Assembly (NCBI GenBank): GCA_017612805.1
Contig: JAGAFD010000009.1
Coordinates: 1 to 64,000 of the forward strand
Length of the DNA stretch: 64,000 nucleotides
Direction of reading: 5' to 3'
From: Bacilli bacterium
GTDB lineage: Bacteria > Bacillota_I > Bacilli_A > RF39 > UBA660
The notes beneath the pieces were generated by a model. The model ran no database searches, was not told the origin of the DNA, and worked only from the letters and a program-made list of their open reading frames with translations. Position numbers and translations under genes: made by a program. This document shows positions 1,810 to 6,085 of this stretch, piece by piece. The stretch's first letter is position 1; every line of letters starts with the position of its first letter.

Positions 1810-3540
1810 TTAATTTGAAGATTCATTCAAATATAGTTTTTGATATACTTTTGAATTCTTAAGTAATTCTTTGTGGGTTCCGGATGCTTCAAGTTTACCT
1901 TTATTAATAATATTAATTACATCAGCATCTAAAATAGTTGATAAACGGTGTGCAACAATAACGATGGTGTGATCTTTAACTAATGAATCAATGGTCTTTT
2001 TAATATAATCTTGTGATTCATTATCTAAAGCAGAAGTTGCTTCGTCAAATAAAATTATCTTCGTATCAAGAAGGAGTGTTCTGGCAATAGCAATACGTTG
2101 TTTTTGACCACCAGATAAATTTACTCCACCCTCACCAATAATAGTTTCATAGCCATTTGGAAGTGACATAATATAATCATCAATATAAGCTTTTTTACAA
2201 ACAGCTCGAACTTCATCTAAAGTTACATTCTTTTTAATATATCGAAAATTATCCATAATTGATAAATTAAATAAGAATGGTGCTTGACGAATAATTGAAA
2301 TATTTTTTCTTAAACTTTTCTCCGATAAATCTTTAATATTAATCCCATCAATTAAGATTTCGCCTTCTGTAGCATCAAAATATCTTAATAATAGGTTAAA
2401 TAATGTAGATTTACCATTTCCCGAACGACCAACAATAGCATTCTTTTTATTTGGTTCTAAAACTAAATCTAAGCCTTTTAATGTAAAATCTTCATCTTCA
2501 CGATATTTAAATTTAACATTCTTAAATTCAATTAAACCCTTTGGATTCTTAATGGTCTTTTTACCATAAGCTTCATCAGGATATAGCTTATTATTAACAA
2601 TTTCATCAATTCTTTTTAACGAAACCGAAACTTTATTAAAATTAACCCCAAAATCGGATAATGATTCCACAATTTCATCAATACGCCAGATATAAGAATT
2701 TAAAGTAACAAAAATTGCATAAGTAATCATTCCATTCATAACATAACGCCCAGCAACATAAATTATTGCAAAATTAAGCGCAAAGTATAAGAAATTGTTA
2801 ATACAGTAATATAAGGTTTCATAACCACGAATACGTTTTTCATTAGCAAATAAGGTTTCTAAAGTTCCTGATACATTATCTTCAATAACATCTGAAATAC
2901 CTAAGGCTTTTATTTCTCTTATTCCGGTAATATTCTCCGTTGCTTTCTTAACATATAAATCTGATTGTTCTTTAATTTTTTCTTGAGTTTTCTTAATTTT
3001 TGGAAAGAAGAAATTAGAAACAAATCCCATAATTAAAGCAAATAATAAGATCGTACATCCCATTAAAGTAGATATCTTAAATGCTAATACTAAAATAACT
3101 AATACAACAATAGATTTGCAAATTAATCTAATCATGTCCTTTAAAAGTGACATAACACGGTCAGTATCAGAATGTAAGCGATTGATAAATTCGCCAACCC
3201 CAATATCTTCAAAGGCGATTGCTGGTAGTTTATCAATCTTTTTATACATATCCATTGATACACGACGAACAAATTTCATTTCTAAATAGTTGTATAATCG
3301 ATCTCTAAAATAAGCTAAAAACGAAAAACAGAAAATATAGATTCCTTCCCATAAAAGTAAGTAAAATAAGAATAAAGATAACTCTTTACTCAACATATGT
3401 TCAATTGCTTTACCCCAGAAAAATGCGGCTGTTAAGGCTGGAACATATGATATTAAAACTAAGAAAATATACAATAATACTTTAAACCAATCTTCTTTTA
3501 AATAATTAATTAAGATTTTAAAGTTTTTTAACTTTTTCAT
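1810..3540 (-). CDS. ABC exporter, fused permease and ATPase
   Basis: A 576-residue half-transporter: about six membrane helices (residues 20-310), then one nucleotide-binding domain with Walker A GRSGNGKST, signature LSGGQKQRIAI, Walker B IILFDEATSALD and the H-loop AHRLST. This is the exporter type that moves lipids, drugs or peptides, probably as a homodimer. An upstream in-frame start exists at 3576, but AGGTGG lies just before ATGAAAAAG at 3540. There is no N-terminal C39 peptidase domain. A 31-codon peptide gene sits directly upstream in the same direction, separated by a terminator-like hairpin. That layout suggests the peptide as a possible cargo, which is inference only. Confidence 0.9.
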   Translation of the reverse strand: MKKLKNFKILINYLKEDWFKVLLYIFLVLISYVPALTAAFFWGKAIEHMLSKELSLFLFYLLLWEGIYIFCFSFLAYFRDRLYNYLEMKFVRRVSMDMYKKIDKLPAIAFEDIGVGEFINRLHSDTDRVMSLLKDMIRLICKSIVVLVILVLAFKISTLMGCTILLFALIMGFVSNFFFPKIKKTQEKIKEQSDLYVKKATENITGIREIKALGISDVIEDNVSGTLETLFANEKRIRGYETLYYCINNFLYFALNFAIIYVAGRYVMNGMITYAIFVTLNSYIWRIDEIVESLSDFGVNFNKVSVSLKRIDEIVNNKLYPDEAYGKKTIKNPKGLIEFKNVKFKYREDEDFTLKGLDLVLEPNKKNAIVGRSGNGKSTLFNLLLRYFDATEGEILIDGINIKDLSEKSLRKNISIIRQAPFLFNLSIMDNFRYIKKNVTLDEVRAVCKKAYIDDYIMSLPNGYETIIGEGGVNLSGGQKQRIAIARTLLLDTKIILFDEATSALDNESQDYIKKTIDSLVKDHTIVIVAHRLSTILDADVINIINKGKLEASGTHKELLKNSKVYQKLYLNESSN

Positions 3541-3562
3541 ATGACCACCTATCTTTCTATTA

Positions 3563-3591
3563 AAAACAAGAGCCATATTAATGGCTCTTGT
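3563..3591 (-). terminator. Hairpin between peptide gene and ABC exporter
   Basis: A perfect 12-bp inverted repeat (AACAAGAGCCAT / ATGGCTCTTGTT) with a 4-base loop is followed on the minus strand by TTTTT. It looks like an intrinsic terminator placed 13 bases after the peptide stop and before the exporter ribosome site. It would let the peptide mRNA be more abundant than the exporter mRNA. Confidence 0.8.
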
Positions 3592-3603
3592 TAAACGTTT
3601 TTA

Positions 3604-3699
3604 TTAAAAGTTAAAACATGGTAAGAATATGATCTCGCCCGCCATTTTTAGCAAATTAAAAGATAAATTTTGTGAATTCAAAATTATACTAAAACTCAT
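3604..3699 (-). CDS. 31-residue peptide upstream of ABC exporter
   Basis: This frame starts ATGAGTTTT and encodes 31 residues, beginning MSFSIIL and ending FLPCFNF. The single Cys is fourth from the C-terminus. The start is preceded by AAAGGATGG at good spacing, and a consensus promoter lies about 30 bases further up, so translation looks real. The peptide has an amphipathic middle (NLSFNLLKMAGEIIFLPCF) but no basic signal-peptide N-terminus and no double-glycine site. Its place ahead of a terminator hairpin and an exporter resembles precursor genes for secreted or modified peptides. I do not recognise the family. It could instead be a leader peptide that controls the exporter. Confidence 0.6.
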   Translation of the reverse strand: MSFSIILNSQNLSFNLLKMAGEIIFLPCFNF

Positions 3700-3734
3700 A
3701 TTCTCACCATCCTTTCTTCTTCAAATTCGATATC

Positions 3735-3763
3735 AATATAACATACTATCAAGTAAGTGTCAA
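3735..3763 (-). promoter_or_regulatory. Sigma-A promoter of peptide-exporter unit
   Basis: On the minus strand TTGACA (3763-3758) is separated by exactly 17 bases from TATATT (3740-3735). The predicted start, about 3728, gives a short leader to the peptide gene. Confidence 0.8.
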
Positions 3764-3802: not shown

Positions 3803-4969
3803 TTAACTATTAGCAACCTTATTAGCTGTTTTTTTCTTATTATTAGCAAGTTTTAAAGCTTGCTTTTCTGAAAGATTCTTACGAATTATATCAGCATAAC
3901 CATGTTGTGCACCATTATTATATGTTTCAATAAACCCAATAATTTTATCAACGTTAGCTAATTCGCATTTACTAGCTAATTCGATAAGATTTTTAAAATC
4001 TTTTCTTTCAATGAACATGTCTTCAATAATTGCAACATCAGCACCTTCGATATTGTTGGCAAACTCAATTAGTACATCTTCCCATCCAACACACTTCATT
4101 AACTTTTTTTGATGTGCTAAAATATCAGCGCCTTCTACATCACGCGCAAACCAGTAATTTACAGAACCGTTACATTTTTGTAATACAACTGATGCTAATT
4201 TACTTACATCAGCACCTTTAACTTCATTTGCAAAATCATAACACAAACTTGCATTATCATTCCATTTATTAACATATTTAATAAGTGCTGTTTGTAATTT
4301 TTCTACATTAGCTAAATCATTAAAATCACGGGCAAATCGAAGTATATAATGAGCTGCTCCCATTTTGATAATTGCATTCTCATGGCGTTCATAATTAGCT
4401 GATGGTACCTCATTAACAAAATCATATTGTAAACTCGCCGTTCCAACCTTAACCGCTAACATACTAAGCTTATCGATATCTGCACCTTTTACATCACGCG
4501 CAAATAAAACAATCACTTTATTAGCATCTTCCGTATAATGATTATTATAATCAGCATTTAAAATGATATTTTGTAAAGCTTCAATATCAGCGCCTTCTAC
4601 ATCGCGCGCAAATTTATATACAATCTCAAGCTTTTCCGTAGGTTTTCTCTTTTGACATCCATCTTTATGAAAATATGAATGATTACACTCTTCTGTATAA
4701 TCACCTTTTAAGATTTTATCTTGGAATGGTGTAATATCAATTCCTTTTACATTTGCTGCAAATAAATAAATTGCTTCCAAATCATTACTATCTAAAATAA
4801 TTTGTTGTAATCTTTCAATGTTAGCGCCCTCAATTTCATAAGCAAACATTGCTATTAAAATATAGTTATTAGTAAGTATTGTTGAATCTTCAAGTGCTTT
4901 AACAGCTTTTTCATTATTTACATCAGCAATTACTTTTTTAAACATTGCTATCATTTGTTCATTATTCAT
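3803..4969 (-). CDS. Helical-repeat protein, paralogue A
   Basis: A 388-residue protein built almost wholly from about ten degenerate repeats of 33-45 residues. The core of each is close to 'FARDVEGADIEALQNIIL'. Clear copies begin FAYEIEGANI, FAANVKGIDI, FARDVEGADI, FARDVKGADI, FANEVKGADV and FANNIEGADV. Each repeat reads as two short helices, so I expect an alpha-solenoid binding scaffold. No signal peptide or membrane segment is seen, only a Lys/Asn-rich tail. The start is supported by GAGGAG. It sits 18 bases after a paralogue with the same MNNEQ opening, so the pair arose by tandem duplication and is probably co-transcribed. I do not recognise a named family. Confidence 0.85.
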   Translation of the reverse strand: MNNEQMIAMFKKVIADVNNEKAVKALEDSTILTNNYILIAMFAYEIEGANIERLQQIILDSNDLEAIYLFAANVKGIDITPFQDKILKGDYTEECNHSYFHKDGCQKRKPTEKLEIVYKFARDVEGADIEALQNIILNADYNNHYTEDANKVIVLFARDVKGADIDKLSMLAVKVGTASLQYDFVNEVPSANYERHENAIIKMGAAHYILRFARDFNDLANVEKLQTALIKYVNKWNDNASLCYDFANEVKGADVSKLASVVLQKCNGSVNYWFARDVEGADILAHQKKLMKCVGWEDVLIEFANNIEGADVAIIEDMFIERKDFKNLIELASKCELANVDKIIGFIETYNNGAQHGYADIIRKNLSEKQALKLANNKKKTANKVANS

Positions 4970-4987: not shown

Positions 4988-6025
4988 TTAATCTCCAGTA
5001 GCATCAATTAAGCCACATTTACGCATTTCAAGTCTACGTTTATATGCATCTTCTGCTTTATCAATTTCTTCAAAATATTTTTTTTCATATGTATTAGCAC
5101 CAGCAGCAAATCTTTTATACATTACATCACGAATTTTAGTTATATTAACATTTGGCACGTCACATGCAAAACCATAAAAATCAAAAGCACTAGCATATTG
5201 GTTAGATATTAATGCATCAGTAAGAGCATCAATATCAGCACCTTGAATATATTTAGCATATTGAGCCATACACGCAGCGTTTTTATATTCTAATACCACT
5301 TTTTCATGTGCTTTATTTTTTTCAATATCCCTAACAATATCCCTAGCAAAATAATAATTAGCCCAATCATTACAATTCTTAATTACATAATCAGCTAAAG
5401 GTTGAATATCAGCATTTTTAACTGTTAAGGCAAATTCATAAACATAGTTTTTATATTGTTTATAAACGTTTAAATACTCAAGTAAAGCTTGTTCTAAAAC
5501 AATAACATCAGCGCCCTTTACATCACGAGCAAAATATGTAATCCACTCTGCTTCCGGATACTTTAACACTATTTTTTGATGAGCTTCTATATTAGCGCCT
5601 TCAATATTTTTTGCAAACAACCAACTTAATTTTGGAATTTCTAACTTAATTGCAAGTTCATCAAATTCTTGAGTACCTAAATCTTTAAAATCTTTTGCAA
5701 ACTCATAAAGATAAGTGTATTTAAGATAACCACGAGCACCTTTATTTACATAATCTACCTTTAACATAGCTTCCTTTAACTCTTCTTTGTTAGCTTTCTT
5801 AACATTCTTAGCAAAATTATAAATTGCTTCTGGATCACGACTATAAGCAATTATTCTTTCTAATCGCTTTATATCAGCACCATTTACTTTTGCAGCAAAA
5901 TCAGCAATTAGTAAAAAGTCATTTTCTTCTACAATAGCATCTTCCATGATTTTTACGATTTCTTTATCGGCTTTTACTTTTTTTGCCACATTTTTGGACA
6001 TATTAATTATTTGTTCATTATTCAT
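4988..6025 (-). CDS. Helical-repeat protein, paralogue B
   Basis: A 345-residue relative of the downstream gene, with about nine copies of the same FAxxVxGADIxxL repeat, for example FAAKVNGADI, FAKNIEGANI and FARDVKGADV. Some copies have decayed, such as FAKDFKDLGT. GGAGGG lies before ATGAATAATG at 6025; the TTG three bases further up is less likely. The protein looks cytoplasmic and all-helical. The shared opening MNNEQ and repeat register show that the two genes are tandem duplicates that diverged by repeat loss and substitution. The role is unknown; a protein-interaction scaffold is the reasonable guess. Confidence 0.85.
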   Translation of the reverse strand: MNNEQIINMSKNVAKKVKADKEIVKIMEDAIVEENDFLLIADFAAKVNGADIKRLERIIAYSRDPEAIYNFAKNVKKANKEELKEAMLKVDYVNKGARGYLKYTYLYEFAKDFKDLGTQEFDELAIKLEIPKLSWLFAKNIEGANIEAHQKIVLKYPEAEWITYFARDVKGADVIVLEQALLEYLNVYKQYKNYVYEFALTVKNADIQPLADYVIKNCNDWANYYFARDIVRDIEKNKAHEKVVLEYKNAACMAQYAKYIQGADIDALTDALISNQYASAFDFYGFACDVPNVNITKIRDVMYKRFAAGANTYEKKYFEEIDKAEDAYKRRLEMRKCGLIDATGD

Positions 6026-6085
6026 CAAAAACCCTCCAAAACAAATTAATATTTATTATAAGAGATAATGTTTTTAATAGCAATA

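Follow-up and report, generated by a model that had tools for sequence, protein, structure and literature searches.

A short reading frame upstream of an ABC exporter gene in uncultured Bacilli as a probable ribosome-mediated transcription attenuator

In the window (the whole stretch of 64,000 nucleotides that was analysed), a 31-codon frame and a hairpin lie between a promoter and a gene encoding an ABC exporter. This locus raises the question of whether the short frame encodes a peptide secreted by the exporter or takes part in the control of the exporter gene. A preliminary description favoured an exported signal or antimicrobial peptide and mentioned a regulatory leader as its last option. 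The present analysis supports it in part: the unit that it recognized and the regulatory leader are right, and its headline reading as a peptide fails. As judged from comparative and folding analyses, the unit is probably (about 80%) a ribosome-mediated transcription attenuator of the exporter gene.

Organization of the locus and of its orthologs

All the components of the unit are carried by the minus strand, in the order promoter (3763-3735), ribosome site, 31-codon frame with its stop codon (3699-3604), intrinsic terminator (3592-3565) and exporter gene (ATG at 3540). The promoter, TTGACA-17-TATATT, displays 11/12 matches and a TG extended -10. As a scan found promoter-like sites no more often than in shuffles (21 versus 25.5), its support comes from its recurrence at the equivalent place in orthologous leaders. 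The transcript probably starts near 3728. The frame, preceded by the ribosome site AAAGGATGGTGAGAAT, encodes the peptide MSFSIILNSQNLSFNLLKMAGEIIFLPCFNF. The terminator is a perfect 12-bp stem, and a U-run can be read from the sequence at 3560-3564. The consensus promoter and good ribosome site driving the frame, the hairpin with its T-run and the ABC half-transporter gene that follows were all listed in the preliminary description and are all present.

The exporter gene (1810-3540) encodes a half-transporter of the MsbA/Sav1866/P-gp type, which carries ABC_membrane and ABC_tran domains and intact Walker A, signature and Walker B motifs, and which, among proteins of solved structure, is closest in sequence to P-glycoprotein-type exporters, Sav1866 and MsbA. 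Its start codon at 3540 is preceded by GGTGG; an alternative start at 3576 was rejected, as it falls inside the terminator and the orthologs favour 3540. On the same strand, positions 3803-4969 and 4988-6028 of the window encode two adjacent proteins made of repeated units around 'FARDVxGADI', for neither of which Pfam or NCBIfam gives a match above cut-off.

Searching 117 genomes of the family and scanning genome contigs once yielded about 40 exporter orthologs, 52-70% identical, plus another group with 42-47% identity. The contigs carrying them are labelled as uncultured Bacilli, Tenericutes or Firmicutes and, in one case, as Candidatus Caccenecus. More than 20 of the approximately 40 exporter orthologs that were fetched (exporter identity 42-70%) share the leader unit, in which a promoter is followed by a conserved AAAGGAGTGAGAATATG-like start region, then by a frame of 19-36 codons and lastly by a terminator located just before the exporter gene. 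The grouping of promoter, short frame, hairpin and exporter into one unit, as proposed earlier, is therefore borne out. Across all loci, 29 leaders were analysed. At least 11 of them (such as L069, L056 and L044), but not the leader of the window, display a GTYAAC-N8-GTTGAC inverted repeat that lies upstream of the -35 box and overlaps with it. This repeat resembles a terminator of the preceding gene in certain cases (L069, L092) and could alternatively be an operator.

Coding properties of the short frame

If the frame encoded a peptide precursor, to be exported as a signal or an antimicrobial, the hairpin would be a leaky terminator and the ABC protein would export the peptide. The order of the parts agrees with this explanation and no other cargo is evident in the window. 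However, the peptide is not conserved along with the exporter. Indeed, the 29 leader peptides are on average 22% identical in pairwise comparisons, a value that is 20% after shuffling. Four close pairs of leaders display 36.5 non-synonymous and 11.5 synonymous changes (pN ~0.13, pS ~0.19), which gives a pN/pS of ~0.7, whereas the exporter, compared in three of these pairs, gives ~0.18 (pN ~0.06, pS ~0.34). A Cys is found within the last seven residues in only eight of the 29 leaders, and about half of the orthologous exporters (~18) are devoid of such a leader. There is no leader-cleavage motif; furthermore, a domain search detected no C39 peptidase in the exporter and no modification enzyme is encoded by the genes read around it, in agreement with the preliminary description. 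The conserved letters correspond to RNA pairs, and the terminal 'FLPCF' is encoded by a stretch of RNA that pairs with the ribosome-binding site of the leader itself. Export of the peptide is therefore the least probable of all the explanations weighed here. The search for the short frame upstream of orthologous exporters, which had been suggested as a check, turned against a secreted peptide by the refuting condition set with it: a frame occupies the same place in many of them, but its amino-acid sequence is unconstrained.

Homology searches gave no family for the leader. The 31-residue peptide has no Pfam or NCBIfam match, a search among 98 relatives returned weak matches only (best E 0.008), none of which was taken as a homolog, and no Rfam family matches at gathering score, the best one being Phe_leader (19.4 bits for a threshold of 55).

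The frame is nevertheless kept open, over 24-36 codons in 28 of the 29 leaders, versus 78 and 126 stops in 801 codons for the other two frames, and all 29 combine it with a good ribosome site, which predicts translation. Such a translated leader could belong to an attenuator that senses amino acids, in which starvation for one amino acid would stall the leader ribosome; the attenuator logic would be alike, and leaders of this kind exist in Firmicutes (PMC2965389). Nevertheless, single-residue runs are absent from 28 of the 29 leaders, the sole exception being one NNN, and the early residues are mixed and driven by A+T content (K, N, L, I). As the regulated gene encodes an exporter, neither a biosynthetic enzyme nor an amino-acid importer, amino-acid sensing is very improbable, although a shade less so than peptide export.

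Alternative pairings and the predicted switch

The first pairing, the anti-antiterminator (A:C), joins the two ends of the leader. Segment A (AGGATGGTGAGAATATG, 3697-3713) includes the Shine-Dalgarno sequence and the leader start codon, and segment C (CAUAUUCUUACCAU, 3618-3631) lies near the 3' end of the frame. In the window, they form 14 bp (3710-3697 with 3631-3618) with a duplex energy of -18.9 kcal/mol, which none of 200 shuffles equalled. The duplex ranks within the best 0.05 of shuffles in 21 of 25 leaders, and segments pair better with their own partner than with swapped ones (z -9.5). Since MAFFT alignment of all the leaders misaligned the 3' segment in some rows, pairs were counted on 13 leaders aligned by means of a model, a procedure that leans towards the structure supplied. 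Pairing then holds for 98.3% of cells, versus 41-72% when the partner is slid by 1-3 columns, and three of the nine pairs have changed on both sides. Variant start regions come with matching partners, such as GUGUGAUU with AAUCGCAC in L095 and GAGUGUUA with UAACACUC in L041. Two leaders, L041 and L046, display strong A:C pairing and no clear terminator. In L041, segment C adjoins the exporter's own ribosome site, and regulation may be translational.

The second pairing, the antiterminator (2:3), involves segment 2 (AAUGGC, 3641-3646), located in mid-frame, and segment 3 (GCCAUU, 3585-3580), which belongs to the 5' arm and loop of the terminator. In the window it comprises only 6 bp and taken alone is not better than shuffles (p 0.36). 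In the orthologs, the duplex between mid-frame and terminator 5' arm ranks within the best 0.05 of shuffles in 19 of 23 leaders, and own-partner duplexes again surpass swapped ones (z -8.5). Inside the antiterminator, a hairpin, B:C (GG.GAGA...UCUU.CC, 3620-3639), found by folding and with equivalents in most orthologs, presents to segment C a mimic of the ribosome site carried by the frame. When A is masked and the transcript ended before the terminator 3' arm, the fold is closed by the 2:3 stem in nearly all leaders, and in most of them this stem encloses the hairpin of C with the mimic of A.

These comparisons also bear on the simplest explanation of the hairpin, according to which it would be an ordinary terminator, devoid of any regulatory role, that separates the exporter gene from a small RNA or an unrelated short gene. 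Intergenic intrinsic terminators are common, and one leader persists without an exporter. Indeed, the orphan leader L092 of genome G322 (G322:C2:43809-43921) retains a promoter, a frame and a hairpin without a clear U-run; a convergent gpmA-like gene occupies the place of the exporter, and the best exporter match of this genome is only 34% identical, which suggests that the exporter was lost recently. However, an ordinary terminator would explain neither the co-variation of its arm with the frame, as measured by the partner swaps, nor the recurrence of the unit at the same place before one gene. This explanation is very unlikely, more so than amino-acid sensing and slightly less so than export of the peptide.

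An attenuator might alternatively be switched by a small molecule or a protein binding the leader RNA, regardless of translation. Alternative structures alone could switch, and the sequence of the start region is conserved. However, every leader keeps a frame open over its whole length and a good ribosome site, and no conserved core left unpaired, such as ligand pockets typically have, is seen in the leaders. A ligand-operated switch is consequently improbable, albeit the least improbable of the four alternatives. By contrast, the conserved RNA pairing and the unconserved peptide support the regulatory leader that the preliminary description had mentioned last.

Control by the ribosome was explored by placing a ribosome footprint codon by codon on the 29 leaders and simulating the fold of each single RNA at equilibrium. 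With the ribosome at codons 1-3, antiterminator pairing averages 0.70; it falls to 0.08-0.15 at codons 13-17, staying at 0.15 or below around codons 13-18, and rises again to ~0.5 near codons 22-26, and mean A:C pairing peaks at 0.72 near codon 14. With shuffled frame bodies, antiterminator pairing at codon 1 is 0.37, the real leader exceeding the shuffled one in 29 out of 29 cases. In the window, the RNA without ribosome has an A:C pairing of 0.94 and an antiterminator pairing of 0.03; with a ribosome on the early codons, antiterminator pairing is 0.44 at codon 1 and reaches 0.44-0.45. In these simulations, a ribosome on codons 1-5 favours the antiterminator and a ribosome located further along favours termination, as does the absence of any ribosome in the window. 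In several relatives, the antiterminator is favoured even without ribosome, and folding energies alone therefore do not prove the off state.

The mechanism that these folds suggest would have three states. A ribosome running through the leader frame would prevent segment 2 from pairing with the terminator 5' arm, the terminator would form and the exporter gene would be off. If no ribosome were present, A would pair with C, which would also keep segment 2 from the terminator 5' arm and leave the gene off. If a ribosome were held at the start codon or on the first few codons, as occurs with many antibiotics targeting the 50S subunit, it would cover A; C would then fold in its local hairpin, segment 2 would pair with the terminator 5' arm and RNA polymerase would read into the exporter gene. 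Most likely, ribosome stalling or inhibited translation is thus what switches this drug-type exporter on, as far as sequence can indicate. That the natural signal is an antibiotic, which the exporter would then remove, is held with less confidence than the kind of mechanism.

Distribution of the leader and comparison with known systems

Leaders matching the covariance model R1 are found mainly in the family of the window. The two matches found elsewhere in the class (L133, L134) look like chance, as do many weak matches (such as L098 and L104-L119), which often correspond to the start regions of ordinary genes. A strict pattern combining the start and the end of the leader was found in seven of 291 genomes of the family, one of its matches (L127) looking like the start of an ordinary gene, and in none of the control genomes listed. 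A second DNA match in the window's own genome (L002) lies inside an unrelated gene.

One relative, G233, carries such a leader (L121, reverse complement of G233:C10:7000-11500), with A and C fully complementary, ahead of an operon that begins with two genes for proteins matching the APH phosphotransferase family. As none of the orthologs of the APH-type protein (L136-L140) carries the leader, this context is a single case. The leaders could constitute an attenuator family specific to this uncultured lineage of Bacilli, in which the start site would serve as the anti-antiterminator strand and the frame would carry its mimic, giving the three states (off without ribosome, off with a moving ribosome, on with a stalled one) whatever the peptide sequence, and which could be transferred to further genes of the resistance type, the APH-type operon of one relative being an example; this generalization is tentative, its chances being somewhat below even. 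The leaders also suggest that uncultured gut Bacilli with small genomes keep inducible exporter systems. More largely, a short frame that looks like a peptide gene can serve purely as a sensor of ribosome position, recognizable by RNA complementarity from start to end and not by conservation of the peptide. Such sensors could be searched for as leaders whose start is complementary to the 3' end of their own frame and whose mid-frame is complementary to a terminator arm.

A literature search found no description of this leader in this lineage, which is not proof of absence. The 'ABC-leaders', which were predicted by terminator analysis, are likewise putative attenuators located before ABC transporter genes, but were read as substrate-specific RNA motifs (PMC2965389). 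Ribosome-mediated attenuation is documented for bmrBCD, vmlR and Rli53, and the same logic supports the attenuator reading proposed here. Indeed, the locus displays a leader frame with a ribosome site, predicted to be translated, a terminator between frame and gene, an antiterminator exclusive with this terminator (2:3 in the orthologs, weak but present in the window) and an A:C pairing that covers the start region and is released in simulation by a ribosome at codons 1-5.

In Bacillus subtilis, the short frame bmrB precedes the multidrug ABC exporter genes bmrCD and is likewise associated with a terminator, an antiterminator and an anti-antiterminator; its translation is needed for induction by lincomycin and loss of its start codon lowers expression (PMC4191407), which agrees with the prediction of the present model. 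However, all three structures of bmrB lie within nucleotides 60-162 of the frame (PMC4191407), whereas the present frames stop ahead of the terminator or right at it, and BmrCD is a heterodimer whereas a single half-transporter gene is found here. The leader of the window thus lacks the features of the bmrB family, i.e. all structures inside the frame and a two-gene exporter. Furthermore, unlike in bmrB, the anti-antiterminator would use the leader's own ribosome site. The model also suggests what the anti-antiterminator of bmrB might do, which the study of that leader did not make clear.

In vmlR from B. subtilis, which requires its upstream frame, stalling of a ribosome at the beginning of a three-codon frame keeps the anti-antiterminator from forming (PMC9226507), and Rli53/lmo0919 from Listeria works similarly (PMC8079631). 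As predicted here, a ribosome that initiates or stalls at the start of these leaders prevents the anti-antiterminator and permits the antiterminator. Their frames have only three codons, whereas the present one spans all the switching strands upstream of the terminator, and they control ABC-family resistance genes (VmlR being an ABCF protein) instead of a membrane exporter of the present type. The Shine-Dalgarno sequence of vmlR precedes the stem and is single-stranded; here, the Shine-Dalgarno sequence and start codon themselves form a strand of the predicted stem. What distinguishes the leader from its precedents is therefore that its own start site is the predicted anti-antiterminator strand.
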